Positions 341 to 12,568 of a stretch of DNA of 23,841 nucleotides are shown here, piece after piece (the first letter of the stretch is position 1; each line of letters begins with the position of its first letter). The DNA comes from a virus: positions 1-23,841 of IMG/VR virus record IMGVR_UViG_3300047461_000086. One strand, given 5' to 3'. The translations under genes were made by a program, and so were the position numbers. A model generated the notes under the pieces. The model saw nothing but the letters and a program-made list of their open reading frames with translations, had not been told where the DNA came from and did not search any database.

Positions 341-362
341 GGGGGCGCAATGCCCCCTTTTT
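341..362 (+). terminator. Rho-independent terminator after nrdJ
   Basis: A perfect 6-bp GC stem, GGGGGC (341-346) with GCCCCC (352-357), encloses the loop GCAAT and is followed by TTTTT (358-362). It starts 8 bases after the nrdJ stop. It sits at the meeting point of two converging transcription units and abuts the stop codon of the minus-strand gene that ends at 361. On the minus strand the bases after the stem (AGTTTACTTT) are also T-rich, so it may work weakly in both directions. Confidence 0.85.
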
Positions 363-3300
363 AATCTTCTTTTTCTTCTTGAACCCTTTCCACAACCTTT
401 TCTGCACCACCGCCTATCCAATAGTAGTATCCCGTACCCGCCACAGGAATGTTACGCATAGCTGTGTTGAAAGCATCATAGTCGTTGTCTTGTTCAAACA
501 GTATATTGTCAACAGCTTTACCTGCCTTATCAACAATAGAAGGGAACGCAGGTTGTACTAAGTTCATAGCATAACTACCGAACTCTCCTTTCTGTAAAAA
601 CTTTTCTCTGGTGTATTTACTAACAAAGAATATCTTAGCCAACGATTCAAACATAGCGTCATCAACATCAGATAAAGCGTCAGTATCAAAACCAGAACGC
701 AAGAACTGTCTGGCATTTTCTACCGTACCACCTGCCATTCCTATCGCTAAGGAATACTTAAGTGCTTCTTCAAACGCACCAGTAATATCTCCTCTTTGTC
801 CTCTCTGAATAATATTCTGTCTAATTAAACCCAACTGTTTTAAACCGAAAGATTTAAGTGAGTAGATTATTCTACCGTTTGACATTTCTAAGTATGCTCT
901 AGGCATCTCAGATAAAGAGATAGGTTGCACATCGGCTAACTCATTCCACATAAGTAGTTTAGTGTTGTCTGTTAAACGACCTGCTTGTAAGTCAGCTATT
1001 AAATTTCCCGTCTCATCTTCAAAGACAGCCCCATGTTTCTTAGCAATAGCATCAGGGTTTGCCTTAGCTAGTTTAGTATTTTTAATCCAAGACGCTTTAA
1101 TAAATGTATCTTTACCGAGCCTATCAATACGTCTAAAGCCAGAGTAGGTCAACGCCTTGTCAAGAAACTTGGTCATACCGCTTAGGTTCTGCAACTCAGC
1201 AGACACTTGATTCACCAACCCCAAGTCGTCAGCAGTTACTTTAGCTTTCTTACTACCAGTTGCTAACGCTTTAGCTGTGTTGACCACACCGTTGAGATAT
1301 AGCGAAGAACCAATATCACCTAGCTGAATCAATGCAGAGTCAAACTGACCTAGCAGTGCGGCATATTGCAAGTCCCGTACATTAGCCATGCTCTTGCCCA
1401 TAGCTTTATCAGCGGCTTCAAATCTAGCCTTAAGTAAAAGTCTAAGGTCATCCTGCTGTCCTAGAGTTAAATCCTTACCACGTTTCTTCATGTCTAAAAC
1501 GTGCTTACCTATGGTGTTATTAATTGACTGGTCTAACTCAATCTTACCTGCGTTATTATAAGCAACGGCTTTACCGAAGAACTCATGTTTAGCTATCTCT
1601 CGTTCAGCTTTGTTCACATATAACTGTAAAGCTGTAGGCATATCGTGGTAATACTTTTGTAAGTGCTGTGGTATAGTACGTATTGTACGTGCAGACTCTA
1701 AGCGTTTCTTGCCTGAAGGCGGTGCTTTACGTATAATAGCATTGGTAATTACATTAGCCGCTATCTCATCGTCTAACTCAGACCAATGACCTAAACCTCT
1801 TTTAGTAGCTTCTTTCTGTAAAGCATCATCAATGACTGAACTAGTTTTAGTTCCCACCGCTTTACGTAAACCATCTAAATCTTTGACATAACGAGGCATA
1901 TAGTTGATTAGGTAAGACATCTTAATACCTGATTTGTTTGCTCTAGTATGGATGTCGTCTAATACTTTATGTACATTCCTAAACTCATCAGACAAATCTG
2001 GGAAATGTTTGTCAGCTATTCGTCCCGCCTTAAGTACTTGACCGTTACTCAGTGCTAGTTCCATCTCATAGTACTTAGCTTTCTGCACAGGGTCTTTACT
2101 CTTACTAGCTTTACTCATCCCTGTGGTAAACTTTTCAGTTTTCTTTAATGTGTTAGCTAATGCTACGCTTGCTCTCATATCGTGGTTACGGACAGCACCC
2201 GCTAGTCTTTGGTCTACATTACGTAACACTTGAGACAAAGGCGCACCAATGAAATCCCAAGCCTTACCTATCTTAGTGGTAGAAGCTACAGGGTTGTCCA
2301 TGTTCGCCATTATCTTAGCGGCATTTTCTCTTGACAAGTAAGAAGGTTTCTTATCAGCGTGTAACAAAACATCGGCTCTGTTTTTAGCGTTAAGGCTTAA
2401 GTCTTTTTCAGCTAAAGCTACAGCTTGTTTATTAGTTACAGGCTTTCCGTTAGCTTGTTTACTATTAAATATATGATAAGCTGTACGTTGCTCTAGTTTT
2501 TCTACAATCTTGTTAGCCGTATCAGCAGAACCTTTAGTTGCTTTAGTGTTGTTTACTACATTAAGAACTTTCTTACCACTTTTTTCTATAGCCTTAACAG
2601 GCGTACGGACACCTGCTCTATATATTAAACCTGTTGTTTGTATAGGAGCAAAAGCGGCAGTAAATAACGTACCGTAAGCAAACGACTCAACAAGTTTTTC
2701 TGCGTCAGCTTCGTCCTGAACCATCTGCCTACTACCTTCACTGGCTAAACCGTATAGACCGCCTGATAAAAGCAAAGGGACAGCACCGCCACTACTGGCT
2801 ATGACTGTAGGTACTATTAGTGGGTCAGCTATCTCAGACATAATAGTTGCGGTAGCTTTGATTGACTCATCTTCCCCTGCTACATCTAAAACATCGGCAG
2901 TAATATCATAGGCTTCTCTAGCCATTACTTCTTTATTTTCTAGTAAGATGTCCTCTCTCTTTTCTGGAGGCATAGCTAAAAATTCACTACCCGTAATGCC
3001 TTGATTGCTCAACGCATCGTCATAGTAAACCTCAGCGGACACTTGCTCTAAACGACCTGTCTCAGGGTTTCGCATCATCTTGTAACGCGAGGGACTATAC
3101 GCCTCTGCTGTAGTCAACAAACGACCCGCAGTGTTGCTTGCTTTTTTAAACTGATAACCAAACTCTTCAGCGCGTGTTGTTTCCCCTACACCCTCAACGC
3201 TTTTCTTTTGACCGAACTCACCAAACCCCATGTATCTTGTAAATTCTAAAGCCGCCTGTCCTGCTTGAGGAACAGGCATAACACCCCCCATAGTAGTAGG

Positions 3301-3510
3301 CATAGCCCACTGTGGGACAGAAGACATTCTTTCTGTTTCTTGTTTACGAACCTCTTCAGGAACTACATCTTCGTAGTCTTTAATCCCCTTACTGGATTCT
3401 GCTCTATACTCACGTATAGCGTTAGCAAAGGCAAGAGCATCCTCAGTATTACCTGCGTCATCGGCTTTTATAAACGCTGACTCTAGCTGTTCAATAGTAA
3501 TCTTAGACAT
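361..3510 (-). CDS. Very large internal virion (DNA ejection) protein, putative
   Basis: This 1049-aa protein is the last gene of the leftward late block. Its size and its place after the tail genes and two smaller candidate core proteins match the largest T7-like internal virion protein (T7 gp16 is about 1300 aa). The N-terminus (residues 1-38, ITIEQLESAFIKADDAGNTE) resembles a short helical motif I associate with the starts of phage internal proteins. Residues about 229-256 and 276-297 are hydrophobic and glycine/alanine-rich, suitable for insertion into a membrane. The rest is mostly charged and helical. I see no lytic transglycosylase catalytic motif, unlike T7 gp16. Start ATG at 3510 with a weak AGGT upstream; it lies 11 bases after the previous stop. 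The role in ejecting DNA across the envelope is inferred from position and composition, not from a recognised domain. Confidence 0.6.
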   Translation of the reverse strand: MSKITIEQLESAFIKADDAGNTEDALAFANAIREYRAESSKGIKDYEDVVPEEVRKQETERMSSVPQWAMPTTMGGVMPVPQAGQAALEFTRYMGFGEFGQKKSVEGVGETTRAEEFGYQFKKASNTAGRLLTTAEAYSPSRYKMMRNPETGRLEQVSAEVYYDDALSNQGITGSEFLAMPPEKREDILLENKEVMAREAYDITADVLDVAGEDESIKATATIMSEIADPLIVPTVIASSGGAVPLLLSGGLYGLASEGSRQMVQDEADAEKLVESFAYGTLFTAAFAPIQTTGLIYRAGVRTPVKAIEKSGKKVLNVVNNTKATKGSADTANKIVEKLEQRTAYHIFNSKQANGKPVTNKQAVALAEKDLSLNAKNRADVLLHADKKPSYLSRENAAKIMANMDNPVASTTKIGKAWDFIGAPLSQVLRNVDQRLAGAVRNHDMRASVALANTLKKTEKFTTGMSKASKSKDPVQKAKYYEMELALSNGQVLKAGRIADKHFPDLSDEFRNVHKVLDDIHTRANKSGIKMSYLINYMPRYVKDLDGLRKAVGTKTSSVIDDALQKEATKRGLGHWSELDDEIAANVITNAIIRKAPPSGKKRLESARTIRTIPQHLQKYYHDMPTALQLYVNKAEREIAKHEFFGKAVAYNNAGKIELDQSINNTIGKHVLDMKKRGKDLTLGQQDDLRLLLKARFEAADKAMGKSMANVRDLQYAALLGQFDSALIQLGDIGSSLYLNGVVNTAKALATGSKKAKVTADDLGLVNQVSAELQNLSGMTKFLDKALTYSGFRRIDRLGKDTFIKASWIKNTKLAKANPDAIAKKHGAVFEDETGNLIADLQAGRLTDNTKLLMWNELADVQPISLSEMPRAYLEMSNGRIIYSLKSFGLKQLGLIRQNIIQRGQRGDITGAFEEALKYSLAIGMAGGTVENARQFLRSGFDTDALSDVDDAMFESLAKIFFVSKYTREKFLQKGEFGSYAMNLVQPAFPSIVDKAGKAVDNILFEQDNDYDAFNTAMRNIPVAGTGYYYWIGGGAEKVVERVQEEKED

Positions 3511-8054: not shown

Positions 8055-10187
8055 TTATCCTCTAAATCTCTGTGATAACATTCCCTGTATTTCTTGTTGA
8101 CTAAACGCAGGTTTATAAGTTTCTATTGGTGTTCTATATATCTTACCTATTTCGTCTCCAAATAAATTTTCTGTTGGAGTACGCTCAGGCATAACTAATT
8201 CTACATCTATATCTGGTCCATCTACATCAGGTCCTTCTGGTGTTTCTCCGTGAGGAAGTGCTTCATCTAGTGCTTGTAAAGCAGGGTCAACGTATTCTTC
8301 TCCAATGTAGTCAAGACCTTCATCTACTAAATCTACTACTGGTTCAGTTACTTGTTGCACAACATCTGCACCTGCTTCTACTACTTCCCCAACAGGTTCA
8401 AGGACATTACCTATTAGTTCAACAGGACCTTCTAGTAAATCCACAGCGGCATCGCCTATGTCTTTTACAATCTGAGGTGTTTCAAAGTCTACATCAGGAA
8501 GTGCGTCAGCAAGTATACCTGCTCCCTCTTTAATTACATCTTCAGCTACACCACCCACGTAATCTTCAATTTCACTTTCAACAGAAGAATCAAAAGCATC
8601 CGAAGCAGAATCTCCTGCAACCCAAGCATCTGTTGTATCGTTTACAATGTTCTGTATAGGAGCAGGAAGTTCAAAGTCAGGGTCAAGACCCAACGTTTCT
8701 TTAACATTAGCAACAAGTTTATCTTCATCTATATCAAGACCTTCAATCGCAGAATCTACAGCAACATTAGCAAGTTCTCCTTTAATAGCACCTGTAAAAG
8801 CCTCTTCTCCACTTTGACCTGAAACAACACCGCCTATAGTATTTGTTGTTATGTTTTGAACTTGCTCTGGTAAGCTACTAAAAACCTCACCAAGAGTTGT
8901 TGTCTGTGCTACTCCTGTTGTTGGGTCTACTTCTCCTGTAGGTATTTCAACACCTGACTCCGCTAACTGGGTGTTTAGTCCTTCAGTTACTCCTTTAACT
9001 ATTTCGCCACCAACATACACTTTACCTGCCGCTTCGAGACCCTCTTCAATATCTCCTGTAGTTATTGTAGTTTTAATCCCTTGAAAAACAGGAGCAAGAT
9101 GAGGATATATTATACTAAGTACATCGAAAGTAAAATTAAGTGCTTTCTCAAAATCATTAGGTTTAGGAGGGTTATCATAAGAATAACTACCATGTGTACC
9201 AAACTCACCAAAAGTAACATTATCTCTAGTAACATCAGGTGCGCCTACAATAGTACCTGTGTTTAACAAGGTTGTTCCTGCTTTACCCTCAAAGCCCCAA
9301 CTAAATGTTTGACCCTGCTCTAAACTTTCAGAATCAAAAGCATCTCCTTCAGCTAGGTTTAGAAAATTTTCTACAACTGCGCCTTGTGCATCAAAGGCTT
9401 GTCTTTGTATACTATTTTCAGAAAGACTGTTGTATAGTTCTACATCTTCAGCTTTGTCAAAATCAAGAGGACCTTGTTCAATAGCTTTTGCTAATGCGTC
9501 TGTTGGATTTTCATCATAAGCGTTTTGCAAAACTTCCATGTACACTTCATCAGCGTGTTCTTTTGCTTCTGCAAGGGTAGTAGCACGGGAAGCATAATTC
9601 TCAACACCGTATTCTTCTAAATCGTCTGCCCACTCTTCTCGTTGGCTTATATTAAACCTAGCATACATCCCTTGAACTTCCAGAGACCACGGGTCTACAT
9701 CACCGTCTAAAAAAGACTGCCACTTTTCTTCTATTTGTTGTCTTTCATTAGGTGTCCATTTATTAGACGCTAACAACGCATCAAACTCTTTTTTAAATTT
9801 TGCTATATCTGCTAAAGAAGGCTCACCAAAATAATCCCAATATCTTATAGCAGGTGTGTCTGTTTCATAATCCCAACTATGAGGAGGTCGTGCCGCAGTT
9901 CCCGTAAGGTAAGGAGCAAGTCCACTACTGTTATATCCAAAACTATCAAAGTTAGTTTTTGCGTCTCCCCAAAATAAATCAGGGTCTGGCTGTACACTAG
10001 CAAGTTCTGCTAATCTTTCTTCTTCTAAATCTAAACGGTCTTGGTGTTCTTGTATTTTACGCTCAAGTTCTTCTTGACGTTCAAGTTCTAGTTGACGTTC
10101 CTTTCTTTCTTGCTCTTGTCTACGAAGTCTTGCTATTCTTTCTTCTTGAGTTTCGTTAGGATTACTTCTGTACCTATTAACTGTCAT
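8055..10187 (-). CDS. Large acidic coiled-coil protein with internal repeats, probably virion-associated
   Basis: 710 aa, strongly acidic. Residues about 12-62 are an almost unbroken Arg/Glu/Gln coiled coil. Residues 70-340 are mixed and aromatic-rich. From about 370 the protein consists of amphipathic helical repeats: residues 439-472 (PEQVQNITTNTIGG...) and 507-540 (PAPIQNIVNDTTDAW...) align with a 68-residue offset, with weaker copies near 371-404 and 570-590. Residues 580-640 are rich in Val, Glu and Asp with little Lys. The last 25 residues end in a basic QRFRG tail. The start shares bases with the holin stop (TAATG). It lies between the lysis-like genes and the adaptor. I do not recognise a named domain and see no enzyme motif. 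A structural or ejected protein is the likeliest reading. Confidence 0.5.
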   Translation of the reverse strand: MTVNRYRSNPNETQEERIARLRRQEQERKERQLELERQEELERKIQEHQDRLDLEEERLAELASVQPDPDLFWGDAKTNFDSFGYNSSGLAPYLTGTAARPPHSWDYETDTPAIRYWDYFGEPSLADIAKFKKEFDALLASNKWTPNERQQIEEKWQSFLDGDVDPWSLEVQGMYARFNISQREEWADDLEEYGVENYASRATTLAEAKEHADEVYMEVLQNAYDENPTDALAKAIEQGPLDFDKAEDVELYNSLSENSIQRQAFDAQGAVVENFLNLAEGDAFDSESLEQGQTFSWGFEGKAGTTLLNTGTIVGAPDVTRDNVTFGEFGTHGSYSYDNPPKPNDFEKALNFTFDVLSIIYPHLAPVFQGIKTTITTGDIEEGLEAAGKVYVGGEIVKGVTEGLNTQLAESGVEIPTGEVDPTTGVAQTTTLGEVFSSLPEQVQNITTNTIGGVVSGQSGEEAFTGAIKGELANVAVDSAIEGLDIDEDKLVANVKETLGLDPDFELPAPIQNIVNDTTDAWVAGDSASDAFDSSVESEIEDYVGGVAEDVIKEGAGILADALPDVDFETPQIVKDIGDAAVDLLEGPVELIGNVLEPVGEVVEAGADVVQQVTEPVVDLVDEGLDYIGEEYVDPALQALDEALPHGETPEGPDVDGPDIDVELVMPERTPTENLFGDEIGKIYRTPIETYKPAFSQQEIQGMLSQRFRG

Positions 10188-10585
10188 TAGCTATCCCTCT
10201 GTACTTTTTTAGTTTTTTCTACAGTTCTCATAGCACCTAAACCTAACATACCCATCAGTACTGGCATCATAGTAGCCATGTCTAGTACAGGGATTTCAAT
10301 GGTAGAATCGGCAAGAGCAAGCGAAAAATTTGCCATCGGGATAAGAATGTACTGACTCGCAAGTCCAATACAACAAGTCCAACCAACAGCAGGTCGCCAA
10401 CCCGACACAAATAGGCTTCGGTGTGCCGCTTCTGTCTTATTAACTTCAAGTTGCGCTTTCGCAAGTTCCTGCGCGTGCTTTTCAGCCATTGTCGAAAGTT
10501 CAAAGGCGATGGCATTCTTCTTGTCTTTATCCTCTATAAATTTGTCAAGTAGTCCCGTGACAGGTCCGATTAGTTGTTGTATCAT
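10187..10585 (-). CDS. Phage holin, 3-TM family (GTA holin type)
   Basis: 132 aa. An N-terminal amphipathic helical region (residues 1-55, Lys/Glu/Ala-rich) is followed by SGWRPAVGWTCCIGLA, the sequence hallmark of the 3-TM holin family also found in gene transfer agents. Two further hydrophobic segments follow: about residues 76-92 (ILIPMANFSLALA) and 98-117 (LDMATMMPVLMGMLGLGAM). The C-terminus is basic (RTVEKTKKVQRDS), as usual for the cytoplasmic tail. Holins make the inner-membrane lesion that triggers lysis. The start ATG has GAGG five bases upstream, overlapping the stop of the preceding gene. No endolysin lies next to it. Confidence 0.8.
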   Translation of the reverse strand: MIQQLIGPVTGLLDKFIEDKDKKNAIAFELSTMAEKHAQELAKAQLEVNKTEAAHRSLFVSGWRPAVGWTCCIGLASQYILIPMANFSLALADSTIEIPVLDMATMMPVLMGMLGLGAMRTVEKTKKVQRDS

Positions 10586-10592
10586 AAATGCC

Positions 10593-11012
10593 TCACTTAA
10601 GGGGATTAGACAAGTAATCCATACCTTGCCATAAATCCTCTACCTCTTTAGTCAATGTTGTTATCTTACTGTCAACATCGCCAATGTCTTCTATTATTAT
10701 TTCAGCCTTAGCTACCGTACCTTTCATAGCCTCTATGTCATTAGCTAGCTTAGAAACGTCTGTATTAAGTTCTAACAGCTTTTCTTGCTGACTTAGTAGG
10801 GTATCTAGCCTTGTGCCTAAAGTCCCTAAATTCTCACGTAAGGGGCTTATATCGGGTATCTTCTTAGACTCTAATGCTTCCAGTCTTGAGTACAAACTAG
10901 ATGCAGTCCAGACAGTCCCACCGATGCTAGTACCTATTGTCATCACAATGGCTATCCACACACCTTTGAATGACGTATTACCTATCTTTAGTTCTGACTT
11001 TTCTAAACTCAT
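10593..11012 (-). CDS. Single-pass membrane protein with coiled coil, lysis-associated or structural
   Basis: 139 aa. A short N-terminal cytoplasmic stretch is followed by one hydrophobic segment (residues about 18-38, VWIAIVMTIGTSIGGTVWTA). The remaining roughly 100 residues form heptad-like helices (LGTRLDTLLSQQEKLLELNT and following). This N-in, C-out anchor plus coiled-coil plan resembles inner-membrane spanins, and the gene directly precedes the holin, but spanins have no reliable sequence signature. The ATG overlaps the stop of the preceding gene (ATGA). It could equally be a membrane-bound virion or exclusion protein. Confidence 0.5.
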   Translation of the reverse strand: MSLEKSELKIGNTSFKGVWIAIVMTIGTSIGGTVWTASSLYSRLEALESKKIPDISPLRENLGTLGTRLDTLLSQQEKLLELNTDVSKLANDIEAMKGTVAKAEIIIEDIGDVDSKITTLTKEVEDLWQGMDYLSNPLK

Positions 11013-11845
11013 AATTCTACGCAGTCAGTCCCATACATAAAGCAACTATAACTCTGTGCTGTAGGACCAGTCAAGTAGTACTCTGACTCACTACCTAAGG
11101 CTAGTACTTCAGCTTCAGACGCATACAAGTCTAAACCAAAGTTCTGACCGTTAAGATAAACTGCTGTAAGGTTTCTAGTAGTGTTATAACCCATAGCTAC
11201 CCATTGAACATTAGCATCATAAAAGATGTTAGTCTGCTCTGCTGTAGTGTTAGCGTTCTCTATACCTTGCTCTAGGAACTCTACAGCTTGTTCGTTACCT
11301 GCTACCGCTAGGAATGCACTAGCGTTGTTAGCGTGTGTCTCAATGTCATCTACAGACTGATTGTACGTGTCTACTTCTTCCTGACTAATTGTCAATACTT
11401 CTATGTTGTCTGCTACAAAAGTCTGTACTTCGGCTTCCTCTTGAGGACTAGATGCTGACTCTGCTACCTCAGCTACTTCCTGTACAGCAATCATGTCAAC
11501 TACTACTTCAGTAAATACACCAATAGCTTCATCCATCATGTCCAACTCAGTGTATGCTTTCTCTTCTAGTACAGCCTGTATATCTCCAAAGGCTTGATAG
11601 TTTGACATATTAGATAATGCACTGTTGTATGCCTGTAGCTGTTCTGCACTAATGTGCGCTGTGCTTGATAACGTACCATCAGACAACCCTGAGCCTGTAT
11701 AAGCGTACTCTTGTGCCGCACCTACAAGTTTAATACCTCTGTCTATCTGGTCAACGATAGCATTGGAGGTGTCAATTAAACTGTCTAACTCACTGCTTTG
11801 TGCTACGGAACTTAGCACTAACAGAGATAATATCATCTTCTTCAT
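11009..11845 (-). CDS. Predicted secreted protein of unknown function
   Basis: 278 aa from ATG 11845, which has AGGAGAGG six bases upstream; a TTG 18 bases earlier is in frame but ignores that site. The N-terminus, MKKMILSLLVLSSVAQSSE, is a classical signal peptide with likely cleavage after SVA or VAQ. The mature protein is acidic and mostly helical, rich in Glu, Ala, Val and Thr, with Asn-Thr sequences in the last third and a C-terminal Cys pair (SCFMYGTDC). No catalytic motif is visible. Its first 56 bases overlap the end of the preceding gene in another frame. Phage-encoded exported proteins beside a holin could serve lysis, exclusion of other phages, or changes to the envelope. None of these is shown by the sequence. 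Confidence 0.6.
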   Translation of the reverse strand: MKKMILSLLVLSSVAQSSELDSLIDTSNAIVDQIDRGIKLVGAAQEYAYTGSGLSDGTLSSTAHISAEQLQAYNSALSNMSNYQAFGDIQAVLEEKAYTELDMMDEAIGVFTEVVVDMIAVQEVAEVAESASSPQEEAEVQTFVADNIEVLTISQEEVDTYNQSVDDIETHANNASAFLAVAGNEQAVEFLEQGIENANTTAEQTNIFYDANVQWVAMGYNTTRNLTAVYLNGQNFGLDLYASEAEVLALGSESEYYLTGPTAQSYSCFMYGTDCVEL

Positions 11846-12413
11846 CTGTGTCCTCTCCTCCAATGTTTAGTATAGTGTTGTACCATTCAGCGTTATCATC
11901 ATAGTCAGGTATATATACTTCTGGTTGTCTCTTCATTACTAGTACTGCACGTTTACCAACAACTAACTTACCGTTGCTTAGTATGGGGCAAGGTGTCCCT
12001 GACAAGAACATACTCTTCCATACTTCTACTGCTTCACACATACGGGCTACTGCGGCTACCTTCATTCCTAAGTCCGATAACAACTTAGCATCTCGTCTAC
12101 GGTCACAGTTAGGGTCTACTTCGTAGCTACCACTACTAAAACCTACGCCTACTGTTTGTAACGAACCACCTGAACCCTTAAGGCAAGTGTCCATACCGTT
12201 TGACATATAGCTAGGACTTACGGCTGAACCTACTGGTATTTCGCTACTACTCCCTGCTCCGTTGTATGTGTTGCTTGTTGATGTGTCCGTTGTAGTGTTG
12301 TTACTATTTGTTGTGCTGTTGTCCCCATGAAACGTATTCAAAGAACCTTCCTGCGTGTTGTCACCCCAAGTAGCTACTGACAACATCATTAGCAAACAAA
12401 ATAGTCTTATCAC
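11790..12413 (-). CDS. Predicted exported Ser/Thr/Asn-rich protein with four cysteines
   Basis: 207 aa if read from GTG 12413, which overlaps the stop of the 52-aa gene (GTGA). An in-frame ATG at 12464 would give 224 aa, with a longer N-terminus lying inside that gene. From the GTG the start is MIRLFCLLMMLSVATWGDN, a signal peptide-like segment. Then comes a low-complexity Asn/Thr/Ser linker. Next is a compact domain with conserved-looking pieces: DTCLKGSGG, NCDRRRDAKLLSDLGMKVAA, VARMCEAVEVW and SGTPCPI. The C-terminus is acidic. The same pattern of pieces, NCER/D...LGMKVAAV..MC...AGTPCP, occurs in uncharacterised proteins of marine phages I know of. The four Cys could pair in the periplasm. 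The role is unknown. Confidence 0.6.
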   Translation of the reverse strand: MIRLFCLLMMLSVATWGDNTQEGSLNTFHGDNSTTNSNNTTTDTSTSNTYNGAGSSSEIPVGSAVSPSYMSNGMDTCLKGSGGSLQTVGVGFSSGSYEVDPNCDRRRDAKLLSDLGMKVAAVARMCEAVEVWKSMFLSGTPCPILSNGKLVVGKRAVLVMKRQPEVYIPDYDDNAEWYNTILNIGGEDTDEEDDIISVSAKFRSTKQ

Positions 12414-12568
12414 TTGCGTAAGTTCTGCACTGTGTCTGATTCCCAGATACGAATACCTAGCCATACTATAGTAAACAAACTAGCCAACGGTGGCAACCAA
12501 GCCGCTAATGACATAATACCAGTTGATGCCGCGGCTAAATCTAAAACTTGTTTCCCTTCTTGAGTCAT
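12410..12568 (-). CDS. Small membrane protein of 52 aa, holin-like or virion-associated
   Basis: A short frame that is easily overlooked. It is supported by a good ribosome site (AAGGAA, seven bases from the ATG at 12568) and by filling the gap between the S74 fibre and the exported protein. It reads MTQEGKQVLDLAAASTG, then a hydrophobic stretch (residues about 17-39, IMSLAAWLPPLASLFTIVWLG), then RIWESDTVQNLRK. The double proline in the centre may break the segment into a hairpin. Similar one-segment peptides with an IWESxTVQ-like tail are, as I recall, common in marine podoviruses near lysis or tail genes. Its stop overlaps the GTG start proposed for the next gene. Function uncertain: small holin, pinholin or minor virion protein. 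Confidence 0.65.
   Translation of the reverse strand: MTQEGKQVLDLAAASTGIMSLAAWLPPLASLFTIVWLGIRIWESDTVQNLRK

Follow-up and report, generated by a model that had tools for sequence, protein, structure and literature searches.

Two-component spanins and unimolecular spanins are among the described systems closest to the phage locus analysed here. A two-component spanin, required to disrupt the outer membrane at lysis, pairs a small outer-membrane lipoprotein (o-spanin) with an i-spanin, which has an N-terminal membrane segment (N-in, C-out) and a periplasmic coiled coil. Lambda Rz and Rz1, of this type, bind via their C termini, and how the outer membrane is breached by phages without recognisable spanins (91 of 677 genomes) is a stated open question (PMC6139136). 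Unimolecular spanins, such as those of the SIO1/cobavirus type, combine a lipobox with a C-terminal membrane segment in a single protein (PMC6775973). Two further systems deserve comparison: T4 RI, which is exported with a cleavable signal peptide (PMC8385771) and acts on the holin T, whose periplasmic domain it binds, and the DUF2730 proteins, described from Mu-like phages, which act on SAR endolysins and are predicted to lie N-out, C-in (PMC9239132).

The locus comprises three genes, A, B and C, in a 23,841-base stretch of DNA (hereafter, the window). Like a two-component spanin, it has overlapping genes, an envelope-directed partner, lysis-gene neighbours and, in C, a protein with an N-terminal membrane segment and a coiled coil, as in an i-spanin, but in the window it has two soluble exported proteins in place of an outer-membrane lipoprotein, and no sequence match to spanins. 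With unimolecular spanins it shares the lysis cassette of roseophages, and in two loci the spanin adjoins C, but none of A, B and C combines an N-terminal lipobox with a C-terminal membrane segment. RI is, as proposed for A, a periplasm-exported phage protein linked to lysis, but it is encoded by a single gene and has no sequence match here, whereas A always occurs with B and C. The Mu releasin gp25 resembles C in being small, in having an N-terminal membrane segment and in lying near lysis genes.

The window is one IMG/VR virus record with its main genes on the minus strand, in the order terminase, portal, scaffold, major capsid protein and fibre genes, the last of which has an S74 chaperone domain. 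These are followed by a small membrane ORF, A, B, C and a 3-TM holin, and then by tail and internal virion genes (Table 1). The portal is distantly related (21–26% identity) to those of HMO-2011-type podoviruses of Roseobacter, SAR116 and SAR11. Two proteins of the structural block, at 361–3510 (1049 aa) and 8055–10187 (710 aa), have no significant Pfam or PHROG match.

Table 1. Coordinates of the module, its neighbours and related lipoprotein ORFs (unprefixed positions are those of the window)
Feature	Position	Strand	Description
Gene A	11790..12413	−	Predicted exported protein, 207 aa: signal peptide, disordered Asn/Thr/Ser linker, four-Cys core; alternative ATG at 12464
Gene B	11009..11845	−	Predicted exported acidic protein, mainly helical, 278 aa
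Gene C	10593..11012	−	139 aa: N-terminal transmembrane segment, coiled coil, C-terminal NPLK
Neighbour 3-TM holin	10187..10585	−	GTA_holin_3TM, E=2.9e-19; phrog_3427 holin, E=2.2e-36
Neighbour ORF	12410..12568	−	52 aa, one predicted membrane segment
A-like lipoprotein ORFs	L164:886-1101; L547:381-605		A-like four-Cys domain; directly upstream of A

A first-pass annotation of this DNA had described A and B as a pair of genes for secreted proteins. Its observation is correct but understates the case: both ORFs, on the minus strand, lie where it placed them, and the 56-base overlap in different frames that it reported is exact (11790–11845), encoding the signal peptide of B as well as the 3′ end of A, but the unit has three genes rather than two, gene C, whose start (11012) overlaps the stop of B as ATGA, having been missed. 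The GTG start of A (12413) in turn shares GTGA with the stop of the 52-aa ORF, which is kept next to A in most close loci. An in-frame ATG lies upstream at 12464, and in several close relatives the frame is closed just before the position of the GTG. B starts at the ATG at 11845, preceded by GGAGGAGAGG, a strong Shine-Dalgarno. A, B and C look translationally coupled.

IMG/VR scans with A returned 177 relatives in one case and at least 596 in another. Across 147 environmental loci with distinct A sequences, B follows A in 127 of 127 and C follows in 115 of 115 of those with enough downstream sequence, so the co-occurrence that the first-pass annotation had proposed to survey for the pair holds in these loci. 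Mean identities in paired loci are 38% for A, 23% for B and 30% for C, and protein-level conservation of A and B extends down to 17–40% identity. A simple heuristic, applied to ATG, GTG and TTG starts in place of SignalP, called signal peptides in 129 of 139 A homologs and 143 of 146 B homologs, compared with 7 of 445 for the remaining ORFs (≥150 aa) in these loci; in CRP-810 and HTVC115P, the B gene as annotated does not take in a full signal peptide. Periplasmic export of A and B, as proposed earlier, is thereby well supported at the level of sequence, and A, B and C are one conserved three-gene unit, widespread in marine phages and predicted to encode a membrane protein with a coiled coil alongside two exported proteins. 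Nearly all homologs have signal peptides of the cleavable type, which are rare in the neighbouring structural genes, and the module occurs in podoviruses and a T4-like phage, whose virions differ. It is therefore very improbable that A and B are virion- or tail-associated proteins, exported by chance-like or cryptic leaders or acting in the envelope during entry, even though they lie among structural genes and directly follow an S74 fibre domain. Phages of Pelagibacter and Roseobacter rank among the ocean's most abundant viruses, and their late genes are mostly unannotated. Two genome papers treat lysis only in general terms, and a search of the open-access literature returned no paper describing A-B-C.

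The composition first noticed for A, an Asn/Thr/Ser linker and four cysteines, is borne out, and the cysteines hold across its family. The 55 residues following the signal peptide are 56% Asn/Thr/Ser, the mature part holds four cysteines, and exactly four are found within the last 190 aa in 110 of 115 A homologs. Specifically, C94, C120, C143 and C159 are invariant, even in comparison with pelagiphage and roseophage proteins at 27–36% identity. In an AlphaFold2 model built from 59 sequences, a disordered linker of ~50 residues precedes a confidently modelled core that combines strands and helices, with blocks of confidence 88–96 from residue 81 to residue 170. A Gly-rich β-hairpin between the first two cysteines was considered as a membrane contact and set aside, its model confidence being only ~58–67. 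The profile phrog_20531, of unknown function, matches residues 37–160 of A (E=5.1e-13) and also A of HTVC033P (E=1.9e-11); the profile is longer (314 columns) and supplies a family label without a function. The A homolog of CRP-810 (L156:5013-5768) is annotated 'OmpA family protein', without Pfam support.

B is acidic, as the first-pass annotation had it (44 Asp+Glu versus 6 Lys+Arg), and the C-terminal cysteine pair is present in the window (Cys268 and Cys275), but it is not a feature of the family, being confined to close relatives and absent from roseophage B proteins. The AlphaFold2 model of B (71 sequences) is confident and mainly helical, with a mean pLDDT of 88.1, and BFVD holds three unnamed viral (phage) relatives. 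Structure prediction, which had been suggested as a check, thus gave confident models for the A core and for B, but the accompanying search gave no PDB fold match at E≤0.001 for either protein; A and B also have no Pfam family and no meaningful PDB sequence match. With a PHROG family of unknown function for A only, the pair stands up as a candidate for an undescribed function.

The B slot is often filled by unrelated exported proteins. The helical type occurs in the window and in roseophages, while pelagiphages have proteins of 430–610 aa with an N-terminal β domain, which gave one weak CBM_4_9 match below the cut-off, and a long Glu-rich stretch; other loci have larger types. An exchangeable partner that evolves faster than A might suit varied competitors, and exported proteins encoded downstream of fibre genes could persist in the infected cell's envelope and keep out other phages, either at the receptor or as their DNA enters. 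Such superinfection exclusion is improbable, given the late-region position, the occurrence of the module in phages with unrelated tails and fibres, and the ever-present membrane coiled-coil partner. A role at the surface, which the first-pass annotation raised alongside it, is conceivable.

The partner gene product, C, ends in [NSAM]P[LMIV] in 114 of 115 loci, though its identity to window C drops to 17–35%, which would suit a docking site at the C terminus, in the manner of Rz and Rz1. Pelagiphage C aligns with window C across the membrane segment (hhalign probability 94%, E=1.4e-7, in a comparison of profiles that do not share window C), and the two are probably homologous in this segment. 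The charges flanking the segment give no clear topology with respect to the N-in, C-out orientation of an i-spanin. The record of S28C10 labels its C homolog DUF2730, yet neither window C nor six C or C-like proteins including that of S28C10 match the DUF2730 profile at E≤1, and on this result we reject C as a DUF2730 releasin. Two further C homologs, L156:6399-6821 (CRP-810) and L157:3292-3873 (CRP-207), are annotated 'lysozyme' without Pfam support; these annotations, and 'OmpA family protein' for A, are put in doubt by our analysis. In two other loci (L523:7413-7775 and L540:2966-3328), a 121-aa protein with an N-terminal membrane segment lies between endolysin and u-spanin; its match to the C profile is weak, and we do not claim it as C-like.

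The module lies in late regions, often close to holins and endolysins. In a set of 76 non-redundant ORFs immediately following C, 14 match Peptidase_M15_3 and 7 match M15_2 (one protein may match both models), 11 match the 3-TM holin model, 3 match phage lysozyme, and GH108 and GH19 are matched once each; ORFs upstream of A have mainly S74 fibre domains, with a few endolysin families. In HTVC033P, A, B and C come after a membrane ORF, a lysozyme, a membrane protein and two small ORFs, in that order; in HTVC023P, the row is A, B, a small ORF, C and an M15 peptidase; and in Mosig, a 3-TM holin homolog stands ahead of A. Two loci, L547 and L548, have the row A-like lipoprotein, A, B, C, u-spanin, TerS and TerL, with the u-spanin straight after C (L547:2367-2711 and L548:2089-2433), indicating that, at least there, the module sits inside a lysis cassette beside a spanin.

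From this anatomy and these neighbours, we infer as the likeliest reading, though at a little less than even confidence, that A, B and C form a late envelope complex taking part in host lysis. C would sit in the inner membrane and project its coiled coil into the periplasm, and the near-invariant NPL at its C terminus would dock A and/or B; A, a disulphide-bonded core on a long flexible linker, would extend with B toward the peptidoglycan or the outer membrane; and the complex would help to disrupt the outer envelope once holin and endolysin have acted. The layout is spanin-like, and the complex may be accessory to a spanin in some phages. In favour of a lysis complex are the constant association of the three genes, their unchanged order in Pelagibacter and Roseobacter phages as different as podoviruses, a T4-like myovirus and an autographivirus, the signal peptides of A and B, the M15 peptidases, holins, lysozyme, GH108 and GH19 just downstream of C, the adjoining u-spanin in L547 and L548, and, in several genomes, lipoprotein paralogues of the A core upstream of A. 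Against it stand the distance of ~23 kb between the module and the holin and GH108 of CRP-810, the distant annotated endolysins of HTVC202P and Baldr, the absence of the module from 27 of 43 loci with a window-type holin, the absence of a lipobox from window A and B together with the ambiguous topology of C, and the lack of a fold or sequence match that would give a function. The lysis role proposed in the first-pass annotation accordingly draws support from late position and neighbours, the role itself staying an interpretation of them.

The same neighbours bear on lysis timing. A is exported, cysteine-rich and often next to a holin, and with B it could act as a periplasmic antiholin on that holin, like T4 RI, with C tethering or assisting it. 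This is unlikely, since the holin is sometimes non-adjacent, the neighbouring holins belong to different families while A is constant, and A and B match no antiholin family.

Because C has the outline of an i-spanin, we searched for a spanin partner. In the window, no lipobox ORF lies near the module. A lipobox scan covering 240 A loci yielded 8 candidates: five could plausibly be small lipoproteins encoded next to A, and another (L216) is an A protein whose Cys resembles that of a lipobox. Whole-genome scans of module-bearing genomes, in which candidates were mainly wrong-frame and CRP-810 and HTVC033P were covered to base 50,000, gave no convincing o- or u-spanin apart from an A-like lipoprotein in CRP-810. 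Since A and B of the window have no lipobox and no lipobox ORF accompanies them there, A-B-C should not be classed among the two-component spanins.

In several genomes, a lipobox ORF of 71–86 aa does lie upstream of A (CRP-810 (L156), where it is unannotated, ct7L0027, L230, L232, L236, L240, L547 and L548). These ORFs encode a short domain with the cysteine and helix pattern of the A core, and profile comparison of the two supports homology (hhalign 96.6%, E=5.6e-10). The A-type domain is thus predicted to be capable of lipid tethering to a membrane.

Unimolecular spanins were traced through CRP-1 gp54 (L245:8836-9177, a hypothetical protein), which has a lipobox and a C-terminal membrane segment and lies next to an endolysin. 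It is likely a u-spanin, akin to those found in CRP-345 and in the SIO1/cobavirus group, its homologs in CRP-345 and cobavirus ICBM1 being annotated as spanins (PMC6775973). In 72 loci, the u-spanin is directly preceded by a gene for an endolysin, by one for a membrane protein (holin-like or other) or by C. The 17 records with the roseophage u-spanin and the 11 records with A do not overlap, and the u-spanin is found in 0 of 342 module loci (partly redundant and short). This separation, with the outcome of the genome scans, would fit a module that is the sole outer-membrane disruption system of phages lacking Rz/Rz1 and u-spanins. However, L547 and L548 have both systems in one phage type, and among the 27 module-less loci with a window-type holin only 1 encodes a lipoprotein less than 3.5 kb away from it, leaving no visible system for the module to replace; simple spanin replacement fails on both counts and is an improbable reading. 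In five loci without the module (L276, L284, L311, L319 and L323), the window-type 3-TM holin adjoins an M15 peptidase, with no recognisable spanin nearby.

A tblastn search with A against 50,697 phage records gave 11 matches: the pelagiphages HTVC023P, HTVC033P, HTVC115P, HTVC202P, Baldr and the T4-like Mosig, the roseophages CRP-207 and CRP-810, a Votkovvirus (Autographiviridae) fosmid, and two spring-water genomes. All nine cultivated or fosmid genomes have a B-slot gene after A and a C-type gene after that; a small extra membrane ORF separates A from B in Baldr, and HTVC115P has one further C-like gene. The named hosts of all eight isolates are Pelagibacter or Roseobacter-group bacteria, and, judged from these few isolates, the distribution seems to follow host lineage rather than virion type.

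The lysis complex might be more narrowly defined, as a hitherto undescribed, host-lineage-specific machine with which marine alphaproteobacterial phages disrupt the envelope. It would join a coiled-coil anchor in the membrane to two exported proteins, one constant and disulphide-bonded, the other exchangeable, and would work without an outer-membrane lipoprotein. We consider this extension doubtful; if true, such a machine would be a third route besides two-component and unimolecular spanins. The module is a fixed unit in the cultivated phages CRP-207, CRP-810, HTVC033P, HTVC202P and Mosig, which makes the question of how phages without recognisable spanins breach the outer membrane directly testable.

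A homologs were also found in 20 assembly contigs (L406-L425), mostly short and labelled Bacteroidota, archaea or gammaproteobacteria. With such unrelated taxa, we did not take these labels as evidence of host, and the contigs in unrelated MAG bins are probably misbinned viral contigs; one of the 20 is an alphaproteobacterial single-cell assembly.
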